Assembly: GCF_001904615.1 (NCBI RefSeq) | Contig: NZ_MRBY01000033.1 | Coordinates: forward strand, 1 to 45,104 | Origin: [Limnothrix rosea] IAM M-220 | Lineage (GTDB): Bacteria > Cyanobacteriota > Cyanobacteriia > Cyanobacteriales > MRBY01 | Reading direction: 5' to 3' | Length of the DNA stretch: 45,104 nucleotides | Shown here: piece after piece, positions 3,063 to 43,388 of the stretch | Layout of the letters: the number at the start of each line of letters is the position of its first letter | How positions within the stretch are numbered: position 1 is the first letter of the stretch | Made by a program: the position numbers and the translations under genes | The notes under the pieces: model-generated | Told to the model about the DNA's origin: nothing | Databases searched by the model: none | The model's input: only the letters and a program-made list of their open reading frames with translations

Positions 3063-6000
3063 TTAAATAACAGAAAAAATTGTTTTAAACACCCGCAGAA
3101 TGGATTTACTCTTAAAAGGTTTACGCACAAAACTAGCAATATGTGCTTCAACTTCCTTAGGGATATCACCTGTGCGAGCCGTCAAAACCATTACTGGAAT
3201 ATTACTTGTTTCAGGAAATGCTTTCAGGCGCTTTAATGCTTCAGAACCATTTAAAACAGGCATTAATAAATCCAATAAAATCACATCTGGCTGATACTTT
3301 AAGGCCATCTGAATCCCTAGTTCACCATTTTCTGCCTCAAAAAATTGATGCTTCGTTCTACTAAATATTGATCTAAGTAAAAGACGATTAGTGACATTAT
3401 CATCGACACATAAAATCGTCAGTTTTGGCAGCGCATTAAATTGTTGAGAACAGTCAAGATTTTGAGATAAATTTTTCTCTTTACTGAGTAGAGGATGGGC
3501 AACCTCTGGAAAAACAACATTCGAAAAAACTAGCGAAAAGGTAGAGCCTTGATCTACTTCACTTTCTACAGAAATTGTGCCCTGTAACATTTCGGTCAGG
3601 CGACTGGTAATATTTAGCCCTAAACCGGTTCCGCCATATTGGCGGTTATCTTGTTTTTCCCGTTGGGTAAAGGCCTCAAAAATAAACTCTTGATCTGCCA
3701 CTGGAATACCAATACCCGTATCAATAATGTCAATTTTCAGCTCACAGCTATCTTCGCCAATATTTGCTGCTGAAATAACGACTTTAACGGAGCCTTTATT
3801 CGTAAATTTAACGGCATTACTAATAGTATTAAACAAGATTTGTCGTAGTCGAACTTCATCGAAAATAATTAGTTCAGGCACAGATTCGGCTACGGTAATG
3901 GAAAATTCTAGCCCTTTTTCTGCAGTTTTTGGCATGAACATTTTCTCAATATTTTCGCCAAGTTTTAATAAATTCAGTTCGTCATAGCATAATTTCAGTT
4001 TGCCCGCTTCCATTTTAGAAAGGTCAAGAATATCATTTAAAATTACGAGTAATGAGTCGGCGCTAGAGTAGATGATTTTTAGATAATCATAGGCCTCAGG
4101 ATTGTCTTTTAAATCTTCCTGTAGGAGTTCTGTAAAACCCAAAATCGCTGTCATTGGTGTGCGGATTTCGTGGCTCATATTTGCCAAAAATTCATCTTTG
4201 GCTACATTTGCGGCTTGGGCTTTTTCGGAGATTTCTGTTAGTGCTAAATTTTGCTGGGCTAATTTTTCTTGTTGTTCTTTTTCGGCGGTGATATCGTAGC
4301 TAACGCCTGCTAAACCAATTAGCTTGTCTTCGGAATCGGTGAGTGGTTCCATACGAATATTGAAATATTGTGGTTCTTGGTTCGCGCCACGGTTTGGTAA
4401 AACTAGCTGTAAACAATCGCCTTGTTTTTTGTTTAAAATTTCTTGTTTACAGGTTACAAGTTGCTCGGCGATCGCCTCAGGAAATAGCTCGTAATCCGAT
4501 TGACCGATAATATCTTGTGTTGAAAAAATTATTGGATTATAAACCCAGGTGTAACGTAAATCTAAGTCTTGGGTAAATACCGTAATACTGGATTGATCTA
4601 AGGTTAAGCGAAATAGAGATTCTTGTTTTCGGAGTTTCCCTTCAGCAATTTTGCGATCGCCAATATCTAATAAAAAACCAACATATTCAATGGGAGTTCC
4701 ATCACTATCACGAATGAGTTTGAGATTCGCCGATAGCCATTTATATTCCCCAGAGGCACACCGGAACCGATATTCCTGTTGGATATTTTCCCTTGGCTCA
4801 CGGTTTGAAAATGAGCGGATCACATTGGCCTGATCCTGCGGCGCAATATGTTCTAACCAAGTATTGCCTGTTTCTAAAAAATATTGGTCTTCAAAGCCAA
4901 CGAGATCATGAATATTTTTGCTAATAAAATTCAAGCGATAGGGTGCTGTGGGATGGCAGGTGAAAACGCTTCCCGGCGAGGCATTTTGTAAATATTGCAA
5001 ACGCCGTTGACTCTCTTGGATTGTCTTTTTCGCTTGGGCTAATTCTGTGATTTCGTTAACGACCACACCCACACCGCGATCGCCCTTGTGAAAGCGAACA
5101 GGATAATAATTTACCAGCCAATGCCCTTCTATATTAGGGTCAGCCGGTGTTGTGCCATGAATCAACACACTAAAAATATTTTCCCCTGTTTGAATGACCT
5201 TGGTGAGTAGCGCTTCAATTTGGTCGCCGATTTCTGGTAAAACATCCCTCGGCGTTTTTCCTAAATGTTCACTGACAGAACAGCCATTCATTTCAGCAAG
5301 CTGCTCATTAATCTTTAAATATTTGAGATTTTGATCAAATAGTGCGAGGCCAACAGGGGCGTGGCGGTATAGAGACTCTAGAAAATTATTGCTTTCGGCA
5401 AGGTCAAGCTTGGTATTTTTTAGCTCACTGATATTAACGAAACTCAGAACAATGCCGTCGTAAGTCTCTAAACTTGTCCTGTAGGGATGGACGCGCATCA
5501 GCAAGTGGGTATCGGGGCGATCGCGGAGGGTAACTTCTTCTTCTAGTGGTTCTTTGGTAGAGAGGACTTGCTGCAAAGGCTCGGTCAAATCACCATAGGT
5601 GAGATTGTGGGTAATGTGATGCAGGGGACGATCAATATCTGAGTCTAATAAATTAATGGCGATCGCCGCCGCCTGGGTAAATTTGCGAATGCGCAATTCC
5701 TGATCAAGGAAAACCACCCCAATCTCAGTACTGCGCAATAGATTATCAATATCGCCGGTCAACTCCGTCAACTCAGCAATTTTGTTTTGGTACTCAATAT
5801 TAAATGTATATAACTCTTCATTGGTACTTTGGAGTTCCTCATTAAAAGCAAGCCGTTCTTCATTGGTGACCTGCTGTTCTTCATTGGTTGTCTCTAATTC
5901 TTCGATGGCCGTTTGTAGATTTTCACGCGTTTGCTGTAGCTCGCGCTCTAGTTCCAGCACCCGCTGGGTTATATCTTCATTGAGCTGCGAATTCGTTGCG

Positions 6001-7952
6001 CTTTCTGGAGACAAAGAACTGTTGGCTGGCCTCTGCAGGGACTCGGCCATTTTTTCGATCACCACAGTAAAGGTACTGTCCTCTGATGTTTCTCCTTTGT
6101 TGTGCAAAACAGTGAGCACCACAGTAATTATTTCGTGACTAAGATTCAATGTAATGTCGGAATAGGTCAAAAATTCTTCGCTACGTTTGGCACGGTTAAT
6201 GGCGATATTGATGGGAATCTTGAGAGCAGGGGGCAACATTTCTGTAACGTCTTGGGTCAGCTCTCCCTTAGGGACGCGCATCAGATCAAGTTTATCGGTC
6301 ACTGTATGGACAAGATTTACTGATCTATCGACAATCAAACAAGTGGCCTGACGATGTTTATATAAAGTCTGTAAGGCAAAGCCAAGCACATTATTCAGAC
6401 GCTGCACGCGATGGTCTGGTAGTTCTCTCGTGGGGAGATTTGATGGGGGCAGTGGTAAATAGTTAAAGGCTGGGAGATTATTGGTGGAGATGATGGGTAA
6501 ACGAACGTCACGGCGTTTTTGGTAAATTTTCCACTTTTTATCGACTGCAATAAATTCGTCGGCGATCGCCCCCGGCGTTTCCGCTTCCCCAAGGAATAAA
6601 ATCCCCTTAGCAACCAAAGAAAAATGAAACATTCGTAGTACCTGTTGTTGCAGCGGCGATCGCATATAAATCAACACATTACGACAGGTAATCAAATTCA
6701 TCTGGGTAAAGCCCACATTTTTGATGAGATTATGGGGCGCAAAGATGATCATTTCGCGAATCTTACGGGCAATATGAAAAAAGCCATTGCGAAAATCAAA
6801 ATACCGAGCTAAAAACTCCGCCGGCACATCATTGACGATACTACCGGGAAAAACGCCTTCCGAAGCTTTGGCGATCGCTTCACTATCAATATCCGTCGCA
6901 AAAATCTTAATCGGAAACACCCGATGCAAACGATCCATGAGATGGTCAATCAAAATCGCCAAAGAATAGACCTCTTCTCCTGTGGCACAGGCAGCCACCC
7001 AAACCCTAAACTGCGCACCTTCCTTGTGATTTTGGATGAGCTGCGGCAAAGTATGCTGCTCAAGGATTGTCCAAGCCTCCTTATCCCGAAAAAATTGCGT
7101 CACCCCGATCAGGAGATCATCCTTAAGAAGAGCCTGCTCCTCAGGGGAAACCGCTAAAAAATCAATATAATCTTGCAAATTTTCATGACCCGTCAGGGAA
7201 GCACGACGACAAATACGGCGGGAAAGAGTTGTAATTTTGTAATAGGAAAAATCTAAATTCTCAGCCTCACACAAAAGGGCAATCACATGTTGAACTTGCT
7301 CGGTACTAAGCTCCTTTTCCATTAAAGATATCCGTGTCATATCTGGTTTATTTAAAGTGACGCGATCATAAATAACTTGGGCTAATTGCTGGGGAGAAAA
7401 AACACTATCCACCAATCCTCTGGCAATCACACTTTGGGGCATACCCTCAAACTCAGCTGTCGATGGCGACTGCACCAGACTCAAACCCCCTTGAGCACTA
7501 ATACTTTCTAGACCCTCAGTGCCGTCACTACCCGTGCCCGAAAGCACCACACCAATGGCTTTATCGCCGCAATCTTCGGCTAACGAATGAAAAAATAAAT
7601 TTATCGGAAAATTTGAGTGAGACCGAGGATTTGATTCTTGTTCCCGTAAAGATAAGTGGCGATCGCGCACCGTCAGATTATAACCAGGGGGAATCAAATA
7701 AATATGATTTGCCCCTAACGCCATACCCTGTTCAACCCGATGCACCACCATCGAAGTGTGACGCTCTAAAAGCTCTTTCATCAAACTTTTAGAGTCTGGA
7801 GATAAGTGCTGAACCACAACAAAAGCAGCACCACTATCACCCGGCATACACTCAAAAAACGCCTCTAGGGCATGCAGTCCACCAGCAGAAGCCCCGACAC
7901 CGACCACATAAAAATCATCCTTCTCCTCATTAGACAAATTAGTTAGTGACAT
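3063..7952 (-). CDS. CheB-CheR-PAS hybrid histidine kinase with C-terminal receiver
   Basis: This is a very large multidomain signalling protein of 1629 residues. A CheB methylesterase domain (about 10-195) has its catalytic triad S22, H49 and D143. A CheR methyltransferase (about 210-485) carries the SAM-binding AACATGEEVYS motif. Next come a long coiled coil of repeated NEEL-type heptads (about 665-735) and PAS domains near 736-850, 862-980, 985-1105 and 1112-1235. HisKA follows with phospho-accepting H1261 in MSHEIRTP, then a HATPase domain with DTGIGI and GGTGLGL. The C-terminal receiver (about 1508-1629) has phospho-acceptor D1561. All catalytic residues I can check are present. No chemoreceptor, CheA or CheW gene is nearby, so the substrate of the methylation module and the output of the receiver are unknown. 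There is no membrane segment, so it should be cytosolic. It appears to be transcribed alone. Confidence 0.95.
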   Translation of the reverse strand: MSLTNLSNEEKDDFYVVGVGASAGGLHALEAFFECMPGDSGAAFVVVQHLSPDSKSLMKELLERHTSMVVHRVEQGMALGANHIYLIPPGYNLTVRDRHLSLREQESNPRSHSNFPINLFFHSLAEDCGDKAIGVVLSGTGSDGTEGLESISAQGGLSLVQSPSTAEFEGMPQSVIARGLVDSVFSPQQLAQVIYDRVTLNKPDMTRISLMEKELSTEQVQHVIALLCEAENLDFSYYKITTLSRRICRRASLTGHENLQDYIDFLAVSPEEQALLKDDLLIGVTQFFRDKEAWTILEQHTLPQLIQNHKEGAQFRVWVAACATGEEVYSLAILIDHLMDRLHRVFPIKIFATDIDSEAIAKASEGVFPGSIVNDVPAEFLARYFDFRNGFFHIARKIREMIIFAPHNLIKNVGFTQMNLITCRNVLIYMRSPLQQQVLRMFHFSLVAKGILFLGEAETPGAIADEFIAVDKKWKIYQKRRDVRLPIISTNNLPAFNYLPLPPSNLPTRELPDHRVQRLNNVLGFALQTLYKHRQATCLIVDRSVNLVHTVTDKLDLMRVPKGELTQDVTEMLPPALKIPINIAINRAKRSEEFLTYSDITLNLSHEIITVVLTVLHNKGETSEDSTFTVVIEKMAESLQRPANSSLSPESATNSQLNEDITQRVLELERELQQTRENLQTAIEELETTNEEQQVTNEERLAFNEELQSTNEELYTFNIEYQNKIAELTELTGDIDNLLRSTEIGVVFLDQELRIRKFTQAAAIAINLLDSDIDRPLHHITHNLTYGDLTEPLQQVLSTKEPLEEEVTLRDRPDTHLLMRVHPYRTSLETYDGIVLSFVNISELKNTKLDLAESNNFLESLYRHAPVGLALFDQNLKYLKINEQLAEMNGCSVSEHLGKTPRDVLPEIGDQIEALLTKVIQTGENIFSVLIHGTTPADPNIEGHWLVNYYPVRFHKGDRGVGVVVNEITELAQAKKTIQESQRRLQYLQNASPGSVFTCHPTAPYRLNFISKNIHDLVGFEDQYFLETGNTWLEHIAPQDQANVIRSFSNREPRENIQQEYRFRCASGEYKWLSANLKLIRDSDGTPIEYVGFLLDIGDRKIAEGKLRKQESLFRLTLDQSSITVFTQDLDLRYTWVYNPIIFSTQDIIGQSDYELFPEAIAEQLVTCKQEILNKKQGDCLQLVLPNRGANQEPQYFNIRMEPLTDSEDKLIGLAGVSYDITAEKEQQEKLAQQNLALTEISEKAQAANVAKDEFLANMSHEIRTPMTAILGFTELLQEDLKDNPEAYDYLKIIYSSADSLLVILNDILDLSKMEAGKLKLCYDELNLLKLGENIEKMFMPKTAEKGLEFSITVAESVPELIIFDEVRLRQILFNTISNAVKFTNKGSVKVVISAANIGEDSCELKIDIIDTGIGIPVADQEFIFEAFTQREKQDNRQYGGTGLGLNITSRLTEMLQGTISVESEVDQGSTFSLVFSNVVFPEVAHPLLSKEKNLSQNLDCSQQFNALPKLTILCVDDNVTNRLLLRSIFSRTKHQFFEAENGELGIQMALKYQPDVILLDLLMPVLNGSEALKRLKAFPETSNIPVMVLTARTGDIPKEVEAHIASFVRKPFKSKSILRVFKTIFSVI

Positions 7953-16516: not shown

Positions 16517-17596
16517 TCAGGGTGTGGTCATTAATTCTTGAAAACGAAAATTGTCGCGCAGATCGTTAAAGTCAATATCTGTTTCAGCGAAGTTACGATT
16601 AACGGGATCAAGTTCAATGGCAATCTGAAGGTTATCAAGGGCTTCATTGACTTGCCCCAGACGCGCATGGGAAATCGCAATATTGTAAAGTGCCACATCT
16701 TTATTGGGATTAATCTCGATGGCTTTGTCATAGCTGGCGATCGCCTCTAGTTCACGACCCATGTCACTGAGGGAAATCCCCCGGTTATACCAAGCATCTT
16801 CATCCAATGGATTAATTGCTAAAAGACTGTCATAGCTGGCAATTTCCTGCTCAAAGTCCCCTAACAGACCAAAGGCAATCCCCCGGTTATACCAAGCATC
16901 TTCATGTGCTGGATTCTGGACAAGGGCTTCATCGTAGCTCGCAATTTCCTCTTCTGGGCGACCAAGATCCCCGAAAGCCACACCACGGTTGTACCAAGCG
17001 TTATCATTCGTCGGGTCTATGGAGAGGGAGGTATCATAACTCGCGATTTCTTCTTCGTAGCGTCCGAGAGTTCCTAGTAAAATACCGCGGTTATACCAAG
17101 CTTCTGCATCATTCGGATTTAGGCGACCCGCCTGTTCATAGCTCAAAATTGCCGCCTCAAGGTCACCCAGACTTTCGAGGGCAAAGGCGCGATTAAACCA
17201 GATATCACCATTGTCTGGCTCTAGGGCGATCGCCTCGTCATAGCTGGCGACTTCTTCTTCATAACGGCCTAAAGCACCCAAAGCAATACCGCGATGGAAC
17301 CAAGCATCATAGAAAACTGGCTGAATGGCGATCGCCTGATCATAGCTGGCGATCGCCGCTTCATAACGGCCTTGCTCACTGTAATCTAGCCCCTGTTCCA
17401 ATAGAATTTGAGCATCACCTTCAGCAACACTATTTTCTTTAATTTGGATATTTGCAGCAACTGACGCACAAAGAGATCCTTGACAAGATGAAATAAAATC
17501 TTCCGCCAAAACAGTGTGCCGCTGGAGCTGTGGCAAGACAAGCAAACCAACGGACAAAGGCGCTAATAAAAGTTGTTTAAACATTGCATACCACAA
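16517..17596 (-). CDS. Exported TPR-repeat protein
   Basis: A 359-residue protein with an N-terminal signal peptide (about 1-31, hydrophobic core LLLAPLSVGLLVL, likely cut after VLA) and eight consecutive tetratricopeptide repeats of 34 residues between about 60 and 335. The repeats are unusually alike: most begin AWYNRGI or AWFHRGI and continue with LG..EEEIASYDEA. At the DNA level this gives a 102-base periodicity. TPR arrays bind other proteins; here the place would be the periplasm or thylakoid lumen. It is followed on the same strand by no close gene, and the M48 protease gene lies 71 bases upstream on the same strand, so the two may be co-transcribed. The partner is unknown. Confidence 0.85.
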   Translation of the reverse strand: MWYAMFKQLLLAPLSVGLLVLPQLQRHTVLAEDFISSCQGSLCASVAANIQIKENSVAEGDAQILLEQGLDYSEQGRYEAAIASYDQAIAIQPVFYDAWFHRGIALGALGRYEEEVASYDEAIALEPDNGDIWFNRAFALESLGDLEAAILSYEQAGRLNPNDAEAWYNRGILLGTLGRYEEEIASYDTSLSIDPTNDNAWYNRGVAFGDLGRPEEEIASYDEALVQNPAHEDAWYNRGIAFGLLGDFEQEIASYDSLLAINPLDEDAWYNRGISLSDMGRELEAIASYDKAIEINPNKDVALYNIAISHARLGQVNEALDNLQIAIELDPVNRNFAETDIDFNDLRDNFRFQELMTTP

Positions 17597-32931: not shown

Positions 32932-33825
32932 ATGACCATCACTGCGACAGAAGTAACAACCGACAAAACATGGCAATGGCGAGGCTTTAACATCAACTAT
33001 CGCTCTTGTGGCAACCAAGGTACGCCCGTCGTCATGATTCACGGCTTCGGTGCATCCGTCGGACATTGGCGCAAGAACCTACCCGTTTTAGGCGAACATT
33101 ACCGCTGCTTTGCCATTGACTTATTGGGTTTCGGCAAATCCGCCAAACCAGCGCCCTACACAGAAGCAGACTACACCTTCGACACTTGGGCAGCGCAAAT
33201 CCAAGCATTCTGCGAAGAAGTTATTGGCGAACCAGCTTTTCTTATTGCCAATTCCATTGGTTGTGTTGCCGCCATGCAAACAGCCGTCACCTATCCGCAA
33301 TGGGTTAAAGGTGTTGTCTCTCTGAATTTTTCCCTGCGCCTTTTCCACGAACGAAATTTAGCAAAATCTCCTTTTTATCAGCGTTGGGGCGTACCTGTCT
33401 TCCAAAAAATTCTTACAGGCACACCCTTGGGTAAACTTTTTTTCCGACAAATTGCCCGCCCGCAAGCCATTCGGAACGTTTTGTCCCAGGCCTACAATGA
33501 TCAATCTGCCATCACTGACGAACTGATCGATATCCTCCTAACTCCAGCGAAAGACAAAGGAGCAGTCGATGTTTTCCTTGCTTTTATCAGTTATTCCCAA
33601 GGGGCGCTCCCAGATGATTTGTTGCCGTTACTGCCCTGCCCGGCAGTCGTGATGTGGGGCACAGAAGATCCGTGGGAGCCGATCGCCCTCGGTCAAAAAA
33701 TGGTGGAGCAGTACCCTGAAATTGAGTTTATGCGCCTCGAAGGAGCGGGTCACTGTCCCCAAGATGAAGCACCAGACATGGTTAATGCACAGGTCATGCG
33801 CTGGCTCGCAGCCCAAGAAGCCTAA
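32932..33825 (+). CDS. Alpha/beta hydrolase
   Basis: A 297-residue alpha/beta hydrolase fold protein. The oxyanion region is MIHGFGASVGHWR (about 35-47). The nucleophile elbow is A-N-S108-I-G, with Ala in place of the first Gly of G-x-S-x-G. The acid is in MWGTEDPWEP and the His in GAGHCPQDE. This set, with DLLGFGKSAKP, is typical of cyanobacterial and plastid hydrolases related to pheophytinase and haloalkane dehalogenase-like enzymes. The substrate is unknown. It lies about 460 bases before the olefin synthase, which has its own thioesterase of the same fold, but the two are not close in sequence and a link is not shown. Confidence 0.85.
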   Translation: MTITATEVTTDKTWQWRGFNINYRSCGNQGTPVVMIHGFGASVGHWRKNLPVLGEHYRCFAIDLLGFGKSAKPAPYTEADYTFDTWAAQIQAFCEEVIGEPAFLIANSIGCVAAMQTAVTYPQWVKGVVSLNFSLRLFHERNLAKSPFYQRWGVPVFQKILTGTPLGKLFFRQIARPQAIRNVLSQAYNDQSAITDELIDILLTPAKDKGAVDVFLAFISYSQGALPDDLLPLLPCPAVVMWGTEDPWEPIALGQKMVEQYPEIEFMRLEGAGHCPQDEAPDMVNAQVMRWLAAQEA

Positions 33826-34134: not shown

Positions 34135-34285
34135 TCAATCGGAGGAATGATTCCCGCGAATTGCCCATGAACAGGTGACTCAAGGTTTAATATGGTTAAC
34201 TAGGCTGTAAAACCGGATGTTATCCGCGCGAACTGCTAGGATACGGGGTTCAGAATTTCAATTCGCAGGAGTTGCTAAGGCGTAC

Positions 34286-37200
34286 ATGTTTGGTCAATTT
34301 ACAAGTTTCGTCGATCTGCTTCAGTACAGGGCTGAGTCTCAACCCGATAAAACAATTTTCACTTTCCTAGCTGATGGCGAGGCGGAAACTGATTCTTTGA
34401 CCTATGGTGATCTCCATACCCGTGCCCAGGCGATCGCCGCCTATCTCCAGACATACCAAGCCCGGGGAGAACGAGCCTTACTCCTTTATCCCCCAGGATT
34501 GGAGTTTATCTGCGCTTTTTTAGGATGTCTTTATGCGGGAGTGATTGCGGTTCCTGCCTACCCCCCCCGGGCTAACCGGTCTTTCGGGCGGCTTTACAGC
34601 ATTATTCAAGATGCCCAAGCACAATTTGCCTTAACCACTGCAGAGCTCCGGGACAAAATTGCCACGAAGTTTGATGAGCTGGAAAATGCGGCTTTTCAAT
34701 GTTTAGCTACTGATAATTTGAGCCTAGAGTTGGCGGCAGTCTGGCAAGACCCCCACGTTAGTCTCGATGACTTGGCCTTTCTGCAATACACCAGTGGTTC
34801 TACGGGGAATCCAAAGGGTGTAATGGTTGCCCACCGCAATTTACTTCACAACTCCCACATTATTCAAACAGGTTTTAAAAATTCCCAAGATGTACGTGCT
34901 GTGTCATGGTTGCCGCCCTACCACGATATGGGTTTGATTGGTGGAATTTTGCAGCCGATCTATGTGGGGATTTTTCAGGTATTAATGCCGCCTGTCAGTT
35001 TTTTACAAAGACCGTTTCGTTGGCTTAAGGCCATCACAAAATATAAGGCAACGACGAGTGGTGCGCCGAATTTTGCCTATGATCTCTGTGTTGCTCAAAT
35101 TACTGATGAACAAAAGTCGACCTTAAAACTAGAGTCTTGGCAGTTGGCCTTTTCCGGGGCTGAACCGATTCGTAGTGATACTCTTGATAGTTTTAGTCAA
35201 CATTTTGCTGAGGTGGGTTTTAACAAAAAAGCGTTTTACCCTTGTTATGGCATGGCGGAAACGACGCTGATGGTTTCTGGTACTGAGCCACAAACTTTGC
35301 CGAAGGAAATTACGGTTAGTAAGCAGGCCATTGAAGAAAATCAAGTGCGCGAGGCGATCGCCGCAGAACCGACGGTTACTCTAGTGGGCAGTGGTCAAAT
35401 TATTGGGGATTTATCGGTACGGATTGTCAATCCTGAAACCCTAGAACGGTGCGAAGACAATATCATTGGGGAAGTGTGGGTCCATGGCGGCAGTGTCGCA
35501 AAGGGCTATTGGCAAAAGGATGAACTAACTGAAAAAACATTTCAGGCGCAAGTAGATGGGGAAACGGGTTTTCTGCGGACAGGGGATCTCGGTTTTCAGC
35601 GGGATGGTGAGCTTTATATTACGGGTCGTTTAAAGGATCTATTGATTATTCGCGGACGCAATCATTATCCTCAGGATATTGAACTGACGGTTGAGCGAGC
35701 CCATCCGGCGTTACGGCAGGGGGCAGGGGCGGCGGTGTCTATTGAAGTGGATGGTGCTGAACAGCTTGTCATTGTGCAGGAGGTTGAGCGCAAGTTTGTG
35801 CGCCATTTAAATGTGGAGGAAGTGGCTCAGGCCATTCGGGGGGCGATCGCCACGGAGCATCAACTGCAACCCTATGCCATTTGTTTTATTAAAACGGGCA
35901 GTATTCCCAAGACTTCTAGCGGCAAGATCCGTCGCCATGCCTGCAAGCTCGGGTTCGTAGATCATTCCCTCGCGGTAGTGGGGCAATGGTCGGTGGGCAG
36001 TGAACAGGTATCAGTGAGCAGTGAACAGGTATCAGTGAGCAGTGAACAGGTATCAGGTATCAGATATCAGACATCAGATATTGAGGTGGCAGTGGCAGGG
36101 AAAGGCGATCGCCAGCAGCAGGAGTTAGAAGCTTGGTTGGTGGGGAATATTGCGCAGCGGTTGGGCATTGAGACGCACAAAATTGATGTCTTGGAACCTT
36201 TTGCCAGCTATGGTTTGGATTCGGTGCAGGCGGTGCAGGTGACGGCGGATTTAGAAGATCGTCTTAAGCGCAAATTGGAGCCGACATTGGCCTATGATTA
36301 TCCGTCGATTCGATCGTTGGCAGCTTTTTTGATTACGGGTGAAACGGCGACGCAACGGGTGACTATTGCACCGGCAAAAGAACTAAATCATTCAAAAATT
36401 GCGGTCATTGGACTCAGTTGTCGGTTTCCTCAGGCAGACAATCCAGAGGCCTTTTGGTCGCTACTTGAGCAGGGGCAAGAGGGGATCCGCCCTTTAGGCG
36501 ATCGCTGGGGTTCGGAGGAATGGGGTGGTTTTTTAAACCATATCGACCAGTTTGAGCCGAGCTTTTTTGGCATTTCACCACGGGAAGCGGAACAGATGGA
36601 TCCGCAGCAACGGCTTCTGCTAGAAGTCAGTTGGGAAGCATTGGAACGGGCGGGCATTCCGGCTCAAAATCTCGCAAATTCTCCCACGGGCGTGTTTGTG
36701 GGAATTAGTAATAGTGACTATGCCCAGCTTCAGGTACGGGAAAAAAATCCCATCAATGCCTATATGGGAACGGGCAATGCCCATAGTGTGGCGGCAAATC
36801 GGTTGTCCTATTTTCTGGATCTGCGGGGGCCTTCTCTTAGTGTGGATACGGCCTGTTCATCGTCTTTGGTAGCGGTTCATCTGGCTTGCCAAAGTCTCAT
36901 TAATGGGGAATGTGAAAGGGCGATCGCCGCCGGAGTAAACCTCATTCTTACGCCGGATGTTACCCAGACTTTTAGTCAAGCGGGCATGATGAGTGGTGCT
37001 GGTCGTTGTAAAACTTTTGATGAAAGTGCCGATGGCTATGTGCGGGGAGAAGGTTGTGGTGTTGTCATCCTCAAACCCCTAGCGGATGCAGAACGGGACG
37101 GTGATCCGGTTTTGGCGGTAATTTATGGGTCTGCCATTAATCAAGATGGCCGCAGTAATGGTTTAACAGCTCCCAATGGTCTCGCACAACAGGATGTCAT

Positions 37201-40200
37201 TAAACAGGCGATCGCCCGGGCAGGGATTACGGCGGCGGACTTGGACTACGTAGAAGCCCATGGCACAGGGACACCCCTTGGTGATCCGATCGAAATTAAT
37301 TCCCTTAAATCTGTCTTGAAACAGAGTGAGAACTCTCGCGAAGAGCCTTGTATCGTGGGTTCGGTGAAAACCAATATTGGTCACCTCGAAGCAGCCGCAG
37401 GCATTGCAGGACTCATTAAAGTTGTTCTGTCGTTAAACCACGGCAAAATTCCCCAGCATCTCCATTTTCAACAGCTAAATTCCCGCATTGATTTAGAAAA
37501 AATGCTCGCCATTCCGGCAGCGGCACAACCTTGGCAACCATCGACTCAACCGCGCTTGGCGGGGATCAGTTCCTTTGGTTTTGGTGGGACGAATGCCCAC
37601 ATTATTATCGGCGATCGCCCTGCTGTTACCCTTACTGAACCGAAATCGAACAAACGTCCTTGGCACCTCTTAACCCTTTCGGCAAAAGATCAACAAGCTT
37701 TAGGGGCATTACAAGCAAATTACATAAACTATCTGCAAGCCCAGCCAGCTGCAGATCTACAAAACCTTTGTTTGACGGCAAATACAGGGCGCTCCCATTT
37801 CAACCAACGTCAGTCAATTATTTTCAAAGATCATGCCGATTTACTCGCACAATTAACGGCATCACCTCGGCCGTCAACGCCAGTCAGACCCAAGAAAATT
37901 GCCTTTTTATTTACCGGGCAAGGGTCGCAATATGTGGGCATGGGTCAACAGCTTTACGAGACTCAGCCACTCTTTAAGTCAGTGCTCAATGAGTGCGATC
38001 GCCTATGGCAGTCTTTTTCGCCCGACGCGCCGACACTCATCGAGTTGCTCTACGGCGGCCATGATCCGCAGATTGTAAACCAAACCATGTACACGCAGCC
38101 ACTATTGTTTGCGGTGGAATTCGGGATCGCCCAGTTGTGGTTATCGTGGGGAGTTGCGCCAGATTTTTGTATGGGTCACAGCGTCGGGGAATATGTGGCA
38201 GCTTGTTTGGCAGGGGTCTTTTCCCTAGAAGATGGCATGAAGCTGATTACGGCGCGGGGTAAGCTCATGCAAAATTTACCTAGTAATGGTGGCATGGCAG
38301 CGGTTTTCGCAGATAAGACTGTGATTCTGCCCTATTTATCCGAAAATTTGACGGTAGGGGCAGAAAATGGCTCCCATTTAGTGCTCTCTGGGCAAACCCC
38401 TAGTCTTGAAAAAAGTCTCACACAATTGCAAAGCCAAGGTATTAAAACCAAACCCCTAAAGGTTTCCCATGCGTTCCATTCACCATTAATGACACCGATG
38501 TTGGGCGCTTTTCGTCAGGTGGCTGAGCAAATTCAATTCCATGAACCCCGTTTACCTCTCATTTCTAATGTCACTGGGCAGAAAATCGGAGCGGCGATCG
38601 CCACAGCGGACTATTGGGTCAGTCATGTGTCGGAGCCGGTCAAATTTGTCCAGAGTATTCAGGCTCTGGCGGCGGCTGGGGTGAATGTTTTTCTGGAGAT
38701 CGGCGCGAAACCTGTGCTGCTGAGTATGGGTCGCCATTGTTTGCCGGATGTGAAAGCCCTTTGGTTACCGAGTTTACGGCCAAAAAATGACGATTGGCAG
38801 GAAATGTTTACTAGCCTTGGGAAGCTTTATGTACAGGGTTTAGACATTAATTGGTGCGCGGTGGAAGGGGACTATGGTTCCCAGAAACTGACAGATCTAC
38901 CGACCTATCCTTTTCAGCGACAACGATATTGGTTTAGCAAAAAATCTTGGCTCGATGCGGTAACGGTTGAGGCGGATTTTGCCGATTGGTTTTATGGTGT
39001 GCAATGGCAGCCAGTCGCTCTGCCGGAACTGATGGAGCAGGGTGATGGTACATGGTTAGTTCTCGGCGATCGCCACCCCCAGACCTTAGACATCGCTGGG
39101 CAATTTCCCCAGTCACAAATTGTTTATCTCGGTGATGCTTTGACGCAGACATCGGAACATTGGGAAGTGCATCCCGATCAGTTTGATCAACTTTTTGCCG
39201 CCTTAGCTGACACAAAAATTGCGGGTATTATTCACGGTTGGGCGATCGCCGCCGATGCAGAAAATATTGAAGATAGTCAATGGTTAAGCTGTTATACGAC
39301 TTTAAAACTAATCCAAAGCTTGCACAAAATCCAGCGACAAATTCCCTGTTGGTTCCTCACCCGCAATAGTCAAGCCGTTTTAGAGAGGGACAAAGTTGAA
39401 GGTTTTAGTCAAAATTCTCTATGGGGTATGGGTAAGGCGATCGCCCTTGAACATCCAGAATTGTGGGGCGGCATTATCGATCTAGATTTCAACGAAAATA
39501 TCCCTAATCTCGCGGCCATCTGTACCCAGGCGAAAATTCAACAAATCGCTTGCCGTGACGGTGCACTGTATGGGGCACAACTAACCCCCCAAACGGTGAC
39601 GAAAACTGACATGCCCACAATTAAGCCGCAAGCGGTCTATCTGATAACAGGGGGCTTAGGTAGTATTGGTCGTCATTTAGCACAATGGCTCGACGCACAG
39701 GGCGCGACAAAAATCATTTTGTTGACCCGTCGCAGTTTATCCCCTGCTGATGAAATATTGGCGGATTTACCAAAAAGTGCGATCGCCTACACCTGCGACA
39801 TTGCCAAGGAGCATGATGTCCAACATCTCTTCCAGCGCTATCCCAATATCAGTGGTATTTTTCACGCAGCGGGTGTCCTTGAGGATGGTTTGCTCGCAAC
39901 GCAAACATGGGAGAAATTCACGAAAGTTTTTACGGCAAAGATTCAAGGCACGCGGAATTTGCACCATGGCAGTTTGGCGAATCCCCTAGATTTCTTTGTG
40001 ACCTTTTCATCGGTAGCTGCGGTCATCGGGTCTCCCGGCCAAGGAAATTATGCAGCAGCTAATGGCTTTCTAGATGGGATCGCCCGCTATCGTCAGGCAC
40101 AGGGTTTACCGGCTCTCAATATTAATTGGGGACCCTGGGCAACGGACGGCATGGCAACGGCTTTGCGGCATCAAGGTATGACTTTTGTCGCACCAGAACA

Positions 40201-42442
40201 GGGTTTACAAGCGCTCGAAAATGTCTTGGCACAGCACATAAATGTTGGCATTTTTAAGCCTGATTGGTCACAACTTGCTCAACAGTTTCCGGCGATCGCC
40301 CACAGTTTTTATTTCGATAAAGTATTAAATAAAACCGAGACAACGACCACCCAAAATAATGTTTTTGAGCAATTACAAACCTTGCCACACCCGGCGCAGC
40401 AGCAGCAATTAACAGAATATTTACGTGAGTCTATTGCCCGCATTTTAAAACTCGAACCGAGTCAAATTCGGCCTAGTGATAATCTCCTAGATTTAGGGAT
40501 GGATTCGCTCATGGTGATGGAGGCGATCGCCCATTTAAAGCAAGATTTGCGGTTAATGTTGTATCCCCGCGAAATCTATGAGCGACCAAAGTTAGAGGTT
40601 TTAGCGAAATATTTGGGTGATGAATTTCAAAAAGCCCACAATCCCAACTATCAACAAAAAATAACAGCAATTCCCACAGAGTTACCGAGCCAAACAACAA
40701 AAACTTGGCATATTCCTGAGAAGAAAAACGAAAAACCCATTGCCTTTATTTTGTCGAGTCCTCGCTCTGGCTCTACGTTATTGCGGGTAATGTTAGCTGG
40801 ACATCCAGCCCTGTATTCTCCACCAGAACTGCACTTATTGCCCTTTGAAACCATGGGCGATCGCCAAGCAGAATTGGGCTTATCTCACCTCGGCGAAGGT
40901 CTCCAGCGGGCGGTGATGGATCTGGATAATGTCACAGCAGCAGAAAGTCAAAAAATCATTGATCAATGGATGATTGAAAATCGTTCTATTAAAGATATTT
41001 ATGCGGCATTACAAAGTAAAGCCTCAGGAAAATTACTGATTGATAAATCCCCCAGTTATGGCAGCGATCGCCAGACTTTAGAGCATAGTGAAATCTTGTT
41101 TGAGCATGCTAAATATATTCATTTAGTGCGTCATCCCTACGCCATGATTGAATCCTTTAGTCGTTTACGGATGGATAAACTTTTGGGCGATACTAGCGCG
41201 AATCCCCATGGTTTAGCTGAGTCTATTTGGACAAACAGTAATCAAAATATTTTGCAATTTGGAAAACAACTTTCTGACGATAAATATTTACAAGTCGTCT
41301 ACGAAGATCTGGTTAAAAATCCCCGCGTTGTTCTCACTCGAATTTGCGAATTTCTTGGGGTTGATTTCGATGAATCTCTGCTAAATCCCTACAGTGGCGA
41401 TCGCCTCACGGACGGTTTACACCAACAATCCATGGGCGTAGGTGACCCAAATTTCCTCAAACACAAAAGTATTGATCCAGCCTTAGCTGATAAGTGGCGT
41501 GAAGTGACATTGCCGCAAACTCTTAATCCAGCAACAATTCGACTGGCGCAAACGTTTAATTACGAGTTACCGAATGAAGAGTTAGCAGTGAATGAACTGC
41601 CCACAATGACCGAAAGAATGGTAACGGTGCGGGGTTTAGAGTACTGCCTCTGTGAATGGGGCGATCGCCATCAACCTCTCATTCTGTTATTGCACGGCAT
41701 CCTCGAACAGGGGGCATCGTGGCAACTCATTGCGCCAAAATTAGCCGCTCAAGGCTATTGGGTTGTGGCTCCAGATCTGCGGGGTCACGGTAAATCTGAC
41801 CATGCCCAGTCCTACAGTATGCTCGACTTTCTAGCCGATGTGGATGCCCTAGCGAAAGAACTCACTGACCAACCCTTTCACCTTGTGGGACATTCCATGG
41901 GGTCAATTATTGGGGCGATGTATGCGGGGATTCGTCGTGACCAAGTGAAAAATCTCTGTCTCGTGGAAACCATTGTGCCCAATGACATTGACGATGCCGA
42001 AACCGCGGATCACCTTGTCACTCACCTTGACTATTTAGCGACTCCGCCGGAACACCCCACTTTCCCCGATGTGGCGATCGCCGCCCGACGTTTACGACAG
42101 GTGACTCCCGCTTTGTCTGAAGAATTATCTTTGCAATTGGTAGAACGTAGCACCGAAAAAATCAGCGATGGTTTCACGTGGCGTTGGGATGCTTTTTTGA
42201 GAACCCGTGCGGGTATCGAATTTAATGGCATTAGTCGCCGCCGTTACCTTGCCCTTCTCGAAAATATCCAAGCAAAAACCACTTTAATTTACGGAGATCA
42301 AAGCGAATTTAATCGACCTGAGGATTTAAACGCTATCCAAGCAGCAATGCCCAATGCCCAACGCTTAACGGTAGCTGGTGGCCATAATCTCCACTTTGAA
42401 AATCCTGCGGCGATCGCCGAAATTCTTGAGTCGAACCTTTAA
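34286..42442 (+). CDS. ols: Olefin synthase, type I polyketide synthase for terminal alkenes
   Basis: A modular enzyme of 2718 residues. In order: fatty acyl-AMP ligase (1-565; LQYTSGSTGNPKGVMV, GRNHYPQDIE); low-complexity linker (571-599); ACP1 with phosphopantetheine S646; ketosynthase (704-1130) with C857, H992, H1033; acyltransferase with S1299 in GHSVGEY; ketoreductase with GGLGSIG from 1789 and Y1922; ACP2 with S2074; sulfotransferase (from about 2150, SSPRSGSTLLR); thioesterase with S2537 in GHSMG. There is no dehydratase or enoylreductase. This is the Ols layout of Synechococcus sp. PCC 7002: a C16-C18 fatty acid is adenylated, extended with malonyl, reduced, sulfated at the beta-hydroxyl, then hydrolysed and decarboxylated to a 1-alkene. 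The start is the ATG at 34286 (MFGQFTSFVDLLQYRA), matching known N-termini; the frame runs upstream to 34217. All catalytic residues checked are present, so it should be active. Confidence 0.97.
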   Translation: MFGQFTSFVDLLQYRAESQPDKTIFTFLADGEAETDSLTYGDLHTRAQAIAAYLQTYQARGERALLLYPPGLEFICAFLGCLYAGVIAVPAYPPRANRSFGRLYSIIQDAQAQFALTTAELRDKIATKFDELENAAFQCLATDNLSLELAAVWQDPHVSLDDLAFLQYTSGSTGNPKGVMVAHRNLLHNSHIIQTGFKNSQDVRAVSWLPPYHDMGLIGGILQPIYVGIFQVLMPPVSFLQRPFRWLKAITKYKATTSGAPNFAYDLCVAQITDEQKSTLKLESWQLAFSGAEPIRSDTLDSFSQHFAEVGFNKKAFYPCYGMAETTLMVSGTEPQTLPKEITVSKQAIEENQVREAIAAEPTVTLVGSGQIIGDLSVRIVNPETLERCEDNIIGEVWVHGGSVAKGYWQKDELTEKTFQAQVDGETGFLRTGDLGFQRDGELYITGRLKDLLIIRGRNHYPQDIELTVERAHPALRQGAGAAVSIEVDGAEQLVIVQEVERKFVRHLNVEEVAQAIRGAIATEHQLQPYAICFIKTGSIPKTSSGKIRRHACKLGFVDHSLAVVGQWSVGSEQVSVSSEQVSVSSEQVSGIRYQTSDIEVAVAGKGDRQQQELEAWLVGNIAQRLGIETHKIDVLEPFASYGLDSVQAVQVTADLEDRLKRKLEPTLAYDYPSIRSLAAFLITGETATQRVTIAPAKELNHSKIAVIGLSCRFPQADNPEAFWSLLEQGQEGIRPLGDRWGSEEWGGFLNHIDQFEPSFFGISPREAEQMDPQQRLLLEVSWEALERAGIPAQNLANSPTGVFVGISNSDYAQLQVREKNPINAYMGTGNAHSVAANRLSYFLDLRGPSLSVDTACSSSLVAVHLACQSLINGECERAIAAGVNLILTPDVTQTFSQAGMMSGAGRCKTFDESADGYVRGEGCGVVILKPLADAERDGDPVLAVIYGSAINQDGRSNGLTAPNGLAQQDVIKQAIARAGITAADLDYVEAHGTGTPLGDPIEINSLKSVLKQSENSREEPCIVGSVKTNIGHLEAAAGIAGLIKVVLSLNHGKIPQHLHFQQLNSRIDLEKMLAIPAAAQPWQPSTQPRLAGISSFGFGGTNAHIIIGDRPAVTLTEPKSNKRPWHLLTLSAKDQQALGALQANYINYLQAQPAADLQNLCLTANTGRSHFNQRQSIIFKDHADLLAQLTASPRPSTPVRPKKIAFLFTGQGSQYVGMGQQLYETQPLFKSVLNECDRLWQSFSPDAPTLIELLYGGHDPQIVNQTMYTQPLLFAVEFGIAQLWLSWGVAPDFCMGHSVGEYVAACLAGVFSLEDGMKLITARGKLMQNLPSNGGMAAVFADKTVILPYLSENLTVGAENGSHLVLSGQTPSLEKSLTQLQSQGIKTKPLKVSHAFHSPLMTPMLGAFRQVAEQIQFHEPRLPLISNVTGQKIGAAIATADYWVSHVSEPVKFVQSIQALAAAGVNVFLEIGAKPVLLSMGRHCLPDVKALWLPSLRPKNDDWQEMFTSLGKLYVQGLDINWCAVEGDYGSQKLTDLPTYPFQRQRYWFSKKSWLDAVTVEADFADWFYGVQWQPVALPELMEQGDGTWLVLGDRHPQTLDIAGQFPQSQIVYLGDALTQTSEHWEVHPDQFDQLFAALADTKIAGIIHGWAIAADAENIEDSQWLSCYTTLKLIQSLHKIQRQIPCWFLTRNSQAVLERDKVEGFSQNSLWGMGKAIALEHPELWGGIIDLDFNENIPNLAAICTQAKIQQIACRDGALYGAQLTPQTVTKTDMPTIKPQAVYLITGGLGSIGRHLAQWLDAQGATKIILLTRRSLSPADEILADLPKSAIAYTCDIAKEHDVQHLFQRYPNISGIFHAAGVLEDGLLATQTWEKFTKVFTAKIQGTRNLHHGSLANPLDFFVTFSSVAAVIGSPGQGNYAAANGFLDGIARYRQAQGLPALNINWGPWATDGMATALRHQGMTFVAPEQGLQALENVLAQHINVGIFKPDWSQLAQQFPAIAHSFYFDKVLNKTETTTTQNNVFEQLQTLPHPAQQQQLTEYLRESIARILKLEPSQIRPSDNLLDLGMDSLMVMEAIAHLKQDLRLMLYPREIYERPKLEVLAKYLGDEFQKAHNPNYQQKITAIPTELPSQTTKTWHIPEKKNEKPIAFILSSPRSGSTLLRVMLAGHPALYSPPELHLLPFETMGDRQAELGLSHLGEGLQRAVMDLDNVTAAESQKIIDQWMIENRSIKDIYAALQSKASGKLLIDKSPSYGSDRQTLEHSEILFEHAKYIHLVRHPYAMIESFSRLRMDKLLGDTSANPHGLAESIWTNSNQNILQFGKQLSDDKYLQVVYEDLVKNPRVVLTRICEFLGVDFDESLLNPYSGDRLTDGLHQQSMGVGDPNFLKHKSIDPALADKWREVTLPQTLNPATIRLAQTFNYELPNEELAVNELPTMTERMVTVRGLEYCLCEWGDRHQPLILLLHGILEQGASWQLIAPKLAAQGYWVVAPDLRGHGKSDHAQSYSMLDFLADVDALAKELTDQPFHLVGHSMGSIIGAMYAGIRRDQVKNLCLVETIVPNDIDDAETADHLVTHLDYLATPPEHPTFPDVAIAARRLRQVTPALSEELSLQLVERSTEKISDGFTWRWDAFLRTRAGIEFNGISRRRYLALLENIQAKTTLIYGDQSEFNRPEDLNAIQAAMPNAQRLTVAGGHNLHFENPAAIAEILESNL
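35998..36081 (+). repeat. Twelve tandem DNA heptamers inside the olefin synthase gene
   Basis: The stretch is twelve consecutive 7-base units, every one beginning with CAG: types CAGTGAA, CAGGTAT and CAGTGAG recur in a 21-base super-period (35998-36018, 36019-36039, then partial), followed by CAGGTAT, CAGATAT, CAGACAT and CAGATAT. The total of 84 bases keeps the reading frame and encodes a Ser/Gln/Val-rich linker (SEQVSV repeated) between the acyl-AMP ligase and ACP1. Confidence 0.9.
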
Positions 42443-42482: not shown

Positions 42483-43178
42483 CTAAACCTCATTGGGATC
42501 AATACCCAGCTCTCGCAACTTTGCTGCCAATCTGTCCGCACGTTCCCGCTCGACATCCCGTTCCGATTCAGCTTGCTGCTGAGCTAGTTCAGCTTGTTTT
42601 TTAGCATTATCAAGTTCAACAGAAGTTAAAAAAGGACTGCCATCAGGTCGGAAAATTTTTAGCTTTTCCCCCAATGCACTTTTAAATTTAATCTTGAGTC
42701 GCGGGCTAACCCACTGATCCATCTCAGGGATTACTGTTAAATGATCACCAATTCTCTGCCATCCCCCCAAATCCTTCGTGTAGGGATCGTATAGGTAATA
42801 CTCTTCTACTCCGTAGGTTTGGTAAAACTCCAACTTCCCTGCCATTTCCCGGATGGTGTTACCCGGCGATAAAATCTCAAACACCACCTGTGGCGCAATA
42901 TTATTTTCCTCCCATTGTTTATAGGAACCGCGATCGCCTTTTGGGCGACCAAAAACCACCATAGCATCGGGTGCACGCCTCGTTTTGTTATCCCCTTCTA
43001 TCGGATACCAGAGGAGATCTCCCGCGACAAAGACATCGGCTTGATCGGCAAAGATAATTTCAAGATTTTCTTTAATGGTGACAATCCACTCGAATTGCAA
43101 CGTATTGTCTGCCATCGGCTGTCCGTCACTGTCGGGATAAAAAATGCCTGTTTGGTTGGGAGTCAGTTGCTGAACCAT
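42483..43178 (-). CDS. Uma2 family (DUF820) PD-(D/E)xK nuclease-like protein
   Basis: A 231-residue protein of the Uma2/DUF820 family, abundant and multi-copy in cyanobacteria. The restriction-endonuclease-like core has D71 in RAPDAMVVFGRP, E101 in VVFEILSPGN and K115 in GKLEFYQ, followed by YGVEEYYLYDP. The C-terminus is a charged helix with Ala/Glu/Arg repeats (about 195-225) that could form a coiled coil. The start is taken at the ATG at 43178; a GTG eight codons earlier is in frame. Cellular function is unknown; some members are linked to mobile DNA, but there is no transposase here. It is convergent with the olefin synthase. Confidence 0.92.
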   Translation of the reverse strand: MVQQLTPNQTGIFYPDSDGQPMADNTLQFEWIVTIKENLEIIFADQADVFVAGDLLWYPIEGDNKTRRAPDAMVVFGRPKGDRGSYKQWEENNIAPQVVFEILSPGNTIREMAGKLEFYQTYGVEEYYLYDPYTKDLGGWQRIGDHLTVIPEMDQWVSPRLKIKFKSALGEKLKIFRPDGSPFLTSVELDNAKKQAELAQQQAESERDVERERADRLAAKLRELGIDPNEV

Positions 43179-43388
43179 TGCCCGCCCTAGAATTTGCTTC
43201 ACCGACTATTTTAGAAGATGTTTTGGAGAGTATGGGCTTTCCTGCCAAGGACTCATTTTCCCTAATACTAAGCAAAGGGCGATCGCCGACGTGACCCAAG
43301 TCAAATTGCGCTGATATCACCGTTTGAGTCATAGGGCATAATCCCTTATGATTAATCCCTTATTAAGTGATCAGGAAAAGATTTGGAA

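Follow-up and report, generated by a model that had tools for sequence, protein, structure and literature searches.

The window, a 45,104-nucleotide contig of the 4.07-Mb, 92-contig genome of Limnothrix rosea IAM M-220 (rated 100% complete), carries an ordinary, complete olefin synthase (Ols) gene, to which repeats in an interdomain linker add a modest, real and previously unreported feature. We are highly confident of a joint explanation in which this gene would encode a single-chain Ols of the PCC 7002 type making a C19 alkene, and in which one linker would have been partly rebuilt from a heptamer family spread through the genome.

The original prediction was of a complete single-protein olefin synthase, and the intact reading frame, the eight domains found by Pfam and the orthology bear it out. 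The frame is 2718 residues long and uninterrupted (Table 1). The longest possible start, at 34217, gives 2741 residues. We regard this upstream ATG as an alternative, and 34286 appears to be the better start because it coincides with the first residue of the PCC 7117 and G083 orthologues (MVGQFANF versus MFGQFTSF). Pfam found all the domains claimed and in the order claimed, FAAL-ACP-KS-AT-KR-ACP-ST-TE, with E values from 1e-89 to 1e-29 for KS, AMP-binding, KR, AT, ST, ACP (two stretches) and the alpha/beta-hydrolase TE. Chance is excluded for this assignment by bit scores of 912 for the FAAL region with a PCC 7002 FAAL structure and 487 for ST with 4GOX. When the C-terminus was aligned, its best three PDB matches were 4GOX, 4GBM (the CurM sulfotransferase) and 3QIT. 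The first and last are named in their entries only 'Polyketide synthase', and we take 4GOX to be the PCC 7002 Ols sulfotransferase and 3QIT to be the CurM thioesterase. The top FAAL matches, 7R7E/F/G, are assigned in a review to the FAAL domain of a PKS from Picosynechococcus PCC 7002 (PMC11837247).

Table 1. Features of the ols gene and its upstream neighbour, in window coordinates.
Feature	Coordinates	Strand	Evidence
alpha/beta hydrolase ORF upstream of ols	32932..33825	+	Pfam
ols, olefin synthase, 2718 aa	34286..42442	+	ORF, Pfam, orthologue starts, 42-gene alignment; alternative ATG 34217
FAAL (fatty acyl-AMP ligase) domain	34322..35977	+	Pfam AMP-binding and DIP2-like; top PDB matches 7R7E/F/G
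In-frame heptanucleotide array, FAAL-ACP1 linker, aa 570-600	35993..36083	+	Repeat analysis; AlphaFold
ACP1	36134..36331	+	Pfam PP-binding; Ser646
KS (ketosynthase)	36392..37468	+	Pfam PF00109/PF02801; Cys857, His992, His1033
AT (acyltransferase)	37904..38836	+	Pfam PF00698; GHSVGE, HAFH
KR (ketoreductase)	39632..40141	+	Pfam PF08659; Ser1908, Tyr1922, Asn1926
ACP2	40376..40600 (approximate, hand-set limits)	+	Second PP-binding stretch; Ser2074
ST (sulfotransferase)	40736..41374	+	Pfam PF13469; aligned to 4GOX, 4GBM (CurM sulfotransferase)
TE (thioesterase, CurM kind)	41675..42406	+	Pfam PF00561; aligned to 3QIT over the 3QIT length

To examine the catalytic residues we aligned 42 full-length Ols genes, with numbering from the start at 34286. 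This set consists of the window and 41 loci; 29 of the 70 Ols-like loci fetched were left out as split, broken, cut by a contig end or without FAAL, and G495, a match in the order-wide search described below, lay outside the fetched loci. In the window protein we found intact the FAAL motif YTSGSTG (168-174) and Lys547, Ser646 of ACP1 and Ser2074 of ACP2, KS Cys857/His992/His1033, AT Ser1299 and HAFH (1395-1398), KR GGLGSIG, Lys1885 and Ser1908/Tyr1922/Asn1926, ST SSPRSGST and LVRHPY, and TE Ser2537/Glu2561/Arg2641/His2700. The role of each motif and residue is taken from what we understand of these families. All 42 genes share most of the key residues without change, and the exceptions, which fall in relatives and not in the window, include the first histidine of the AT HAFH motif (40 of 42) and the TE glutamate (41 of 42). 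Thus every motif that we checked was present, where loss of a catalytic residue had been named as evidence against the assignment.

The nearest relative that we found is the Ols of G386, 85% identical over the whole protein, while the Picosynechococcus PCC 7117 protein is 69% identical overall, 72% in FAAL and 79% in KS. Both genomes are of the same genus as the window, and a full-length single-chain Ols is present in all six genus members examined. We take PCC 7002 to belong to the same genus as PCC 7117 and its ols gene to be nearly identical to that of PCC 7117. Like the PCC 7002 Ols, the window Ols is a single chain with eight domains in identical order, its FAAL is closest to the solved PCC 7002 FAAL and its ST is closest to 4GOX. 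It differs in being about 69% identical, as judged from the PCC 7117 gene, and in having in its FAAL-ACP1 linker a heptamer array that is absent from the linkers of the other five genus members. A gene with Ols domains, NIES208_12590, has been reported for Limnothrix rosea IAM M-220/Oscillatoria rosea NIES-208 (PMC6256058), and the window ols is possibly this gene already in print. The NIES-208 genome is described as marine and 4.0 Mb in size (PMC5334580), with 16S 99% like that of Leptolyngbya PCC 7376 and 98% like that of PCC 7117 according to the two reports (PMC6256058, PMC5334580).

While the domains, motifs and orthology are observed in the window gene itself, we infer each enzymatic step and the product from the biochemistry of PCC 7002 and CurM. 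FAAL would adenylate a fatty acid, probably C18, and load it on ACP1, and one KS-AT-KR extension would then yield a beta-hydroxyl that ST would sulfate with PAPS. TE would release the acid, which would lose CO2 and sulfate and become a terminal alkene with one carbon more than the fatty acid that entered (C19). The published scheme runs through FAAL loading, a single KS-AT-KR extension and beta-hydroxyl sulfation to a TE-driven release in which CO2 and sulfate are lost (PMC3903477). C19 is the best guess for the window Ols because PCC 7002 makes C19 alkenes, reported as 1-nonadecene and 1,14-nonadecadiene (PMC6361979). Such a product had been labeled medium-chain, which is incorrect as C19 is long-chain. 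The main products of the window Ols might instead be terminal alkenes of C15-C17, or a mixture of mono- and dienes, if its FAAL/KS or the host fatty acid pool were unlike that of PCC 7002. Other Ols strains are reported to make 1-heptadecene (PMC3903477), and the genome of the window has eight matches to the desaturase family in seven genes, so that unsaturated substrates are likely and dienes are possible as products. The identities of FAAL and KS to PCC 7117 given above argue the other way, since PCC 7002, the studied member of this genus, makes C19 (PMC6361979). We consider a shorter or mixed product unlikely, though the least unlikely of the alternatives, and retain C19 as the expected chain length.

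The proposed absence of ado and aar from the genome was upheld. Neither ado (PF11266) nor aar (TIGR04058) was found in the genome of the window, and the S. elongatus control matched in both searches. The Ols route had also been described as one used by a minority of cyanobacteria, which agrees with our sampling across the phylum. Among 386 genomes, that of the window included, 11 had an ST-TE match of at least 50% identity over both domains, and these comprised eight single-chain Ols, one split Ols and two modules without FAAL. Within the order, 70 of 388 genomes matched at E <= 1e-120. We searched for ado in 66 genomes with such ST-TE matches, G485, G495, G496 and G562 being left out, and the search for aar was confined to the genome of the window. 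No ado was found in the 52 genomes whose Ols bears a FAAL (42 single-chain, four split, five with broken frames and one cut inside FAAL by a contig end) or in the three whose Ols is cut before FAAL by contig ends. In contrast, ado was present in five (G298, G261, G573, G590 and G628) of 11 genomes whose ST-TE module had no FAAL in the sequence retrieved, a group in which FAAL could be missed in two (G514 and G537), where the contig ends just upstream of the module.

The published survey includes 17 Ols strains and reports none with the ado route (PMC3903477). This exclusion holds in our wider sample and is tied to the FAAL-bearing enzyme. Since five of the 11 genomes with FAAL-less modules carry ado, the ST-TE pair alone does not mark the Ols route, and FAAL is therefore the better marker. 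The claim that Ols is a lineage and metabolism marker thus stands for the gene, which in the window marks a lineage on the Ols route and fits the known pattern, but does not extend to the ST-TE pair. Metagenome bins of Hydrogenedentota (loci L002, L003 and L004) encode PKS proteins whose sulfotransferase shares 45-52% identity with that of the window. The L002 protein is KS-AT-KR-ACP-ST-TE with a TE of a different family, and L003 has FAAL-KS-AT-KR-ACP-ST followed by an NRPS gene. These may be non-cyanobacterial relatives of Ols chemistry.

The earlier feature description had the domains right and missed a heptamer array in the FAAL-ACP1 linker. Tandem Repeats Finder detects a 21-bp array at 35993-36056. 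When read in sevens it consists of thirteen heptamers, some of them degenerate, that extend to 36083 and encode SEQVSVS-like residues. An AlphaFold model of residues 1-692, built with 42 sequences, has a mean pLDDT of 83.5, while residues 573-605 fall below 50 and have no secondary structure. The array is presumably tolerated because the linker is predicted to be disordered.

To place the array in its genome we searched for its 21-mer with up to three mismatches and found 51 places, with overlapping places counted apart, versus none for the reversed control. These places form 24 clusters. Fourteen overlap no ORF of at least 100 residues, eight overlap predicted ORFs of 102-421 residues, some only at an end, and two lie inside ORFs longer than 1000 residues, namely ols and a hydantoinase A/B fusion. 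The repeat has a 7-bp period and many genome copies, mostly outside genes as judged from predicted ORFs, and so belongs with the cyanobacterial heptanucleotide repeats (STRR/TAACTGA-type). The copy in the 1270-residue hydantoinase fusion (L058, G000:C4:14700-19700) is in frame at 2571-2616 and occupies residues 734-749, between the A C-terminal domain, which ends at 726, and the B domain, which starts at 752.

Several lines of evidence bear on when the array arrived. A 21-mer differing by one base has no places in G386, two in G388 and none in three other genus members. The linker of G386 has no array and places a different stretch of 30 residues opposite 40 residues in the window. Since the array is absent from this linker and the 21-mer variant from the G386 genome, the array probably arrived after the split from G386. 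Judged on six genus members, this is probably an arrival here and not a loss in the relatives, and the FAAL-ACP1 linker would have been partly rebuilt from a genome-wide family of seven-base repeats. A search of viral contigs for the exact 21-mer found none.

The array shares its 7-bp kind with the TAACTGA-type repeats of Beggiatoaceae and Cyanobacteria (PMC4679880), and the reverse unit TCAGTTA occurs beside TCAGGTA and ACAGTGA in the arrays of the window's genome. According to that report, copies inside ORFs occur mostly in hypothetical proteins or close to the ends of proteins, and tolerance of repeats between the parts of modular proteins is no more than suggested (PMC4679880), whereas the copy in the window sits in the linker of a named megasynthase. 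A report on archaeal Borg elements has a title that likewise describes tandem repeats creating disordered protein stretches, in different organisms (PMC9879509).

We found that 7-bp tracts are a recurrent feature of Ols genes. A tract was called significant when none of 200 codon shuffles of its gene equalled its periodicity, and by this measure 16 of the 42 full-length genes contain 7-bp tracts, 30 tracts in all. The tracts sit at poorly conserved sites, with a mean percentile of 8.7 versus 49.9 for random sites and none of 2000 draws reaching this value (the 26 tract-free genes served as reference, uncorrected for shared ancestry). Preset domain limits put 17 of the 30 tracts in linkers, and widened bins put 21 there, from 14 genes in four interdomain linkers: FAAL-ACP1 (6), ACP1-KS (6), KS-AT (5) and ACP2-ST (4). 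The others fall in the AT loop (4), at the AT end (2), after AT (2) and in KR (1), so that the AT loop and KR together account for five. Heptamer sequences differ from species to species, and some tracts look inherited, such as that in the AT loop of G070, G455 and G498 (75-87% identical).

The linker tracts could be mere low-complexity codons that look periodic, as few kinds of residue dominate the linkers, and tracts also appear at lag 8 in eight of the 42 genes and at lag 16 in 2-7 genes at six fixed settings. This is very unlikely, since the tracts exceed every codon shuffle of their own gene and the signal is concentrated at lag 7, with 16 of 42 genes versus two for each of lags 10, 11 and 13, and 13 for lag 14. 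At the six fixed settings, with 11 lags compared, lag 7 was the highest in all (10-17 genes), followed by lag 14 (8-12), with lag 8 at 4-7. In addition, all four heptamers tested are abundant in their own genome, at 51-670 places versus 0-2 for the reversed control. Besides the window array, these are the heptamers of G398 (577 places, control 0), G187 (670, control 1) and G507 (93, control 2), counted with up to two mismatches. Comparison genomes gave 0-6 places, except G565 with 32 places of the G507 heptamer, and two of their counts were not above control (G498, two places, control 5; G455, one place, control 39). The other ORFs of at least 250 residues in the Ols loci had no tracts at a score of 24/35 in 79 ORFs (97 kb), versus 25 in 351 kb of Ols, the ORFs being unmatched for domain number.

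Ols linkers have repeatedly taken up 7-bp repeats. A wider reading is evenly balanced in our judgment: species-specific heptamer families may recur as raw material for the interdomain linkers of Ols, and perhaps of fused enzymes generally. They would enter at the joints, survive through disorder, and quickly rewrite the length and composition of a linker while the domains stay conserved, and could tune the transfer from FAAL to ACP1. Such uptake would make linkers vary naturally in a way that can be tested, a matter of interest to polyketide synthase engineering and to the question why heptamers persist in these genomes. Among the matches listed in a search of the open-access literature, no title concerned repeats in olefin synthase or PKS linkers.

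Another role considered for the array was that of a switch, in which gain or loss of one 7-bp unit would shift the frame and turn alkene synthesis off. The frame is preserved only if three units (21 bp) are gained or lost at a time, and Cyanothece PCC 8801 and 8802 are reported to differ at such repeats mostly by 7-nucleotide steps (PMC4679880). We looked at nine joins between open stretches in seven Ols-related genes, among them one that separates two ORFs of a module without FAAL (G603) and one that is an in-frame stop (G562). The best nearby 7-bp score was 19/35, below the cut-off of 24 used for tracts, and some joins sit at homopolymer runs. The nine joins thus lend no support to a phase switch, and we hold this role to be highly improbable.

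That the window gene serves instead as the CurM-like last module of an assembly line for secondary metabolites has next to no probability: its ST and TE are of one kind with those of CurM, the terminal module of curacin A, and ST-TE modules with no FAAL in the fetched stretch occur in sampled genomes, several beside other PKS ORFs, but the window gene carries its own FAAL and ACP1, which CurM is described as lacking (PMC3903477), no other PKS or NRPS gene appears in the 26 of 34 window ORFs of at least 100 residues scanned by Pfam (the remaining eight overlap larger ORFs), and the full FAAL-bearing protein recurs throughout the genus members examined. A terminal module of this type, without FAAL or ACP1 and downstream of another PKS module, is largely refuted by the architecture.

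By ORF order and sequence starts, which were compared without alignment, the ols genes of PCC 7117 and G083 are immediately preceded by a 299-residue ORF resembling the alpha/beta hydrolase. In PCC 7117 ols comes after a 688-residue ORF and then the 299-residue ORF, an arrangement that parallels FtsH and the hydrolase in the window. Inspection of this neighbourhood in PCC 7117 and G083 found no evidence for a role of the hydrolase. The downstream neighbours differ between the window and PCC 7117. A Uma2-family gene (42483-43202, minus strand) lies just after ols, and PCC 7117 has a 638-residue ORF in that place. In the distant genomes G131 and G358 a DUF6208 gene (PF19713) adjoins the Ols genes (L027:827-1744, L034:76-999), and Pfam found no such gene among the scanned ORFs of the window. 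Elsewhere in the window, an imperfect 21-bp direct repeat of 1.9 copies (17326-17365) lies in a TPR-repeat ORF on the minus strand, and positions 3063-7952 encode a single-chain hybrid of 1629 residues with CheB, CheR, several PAS, histidine kinase and response regulator domains.
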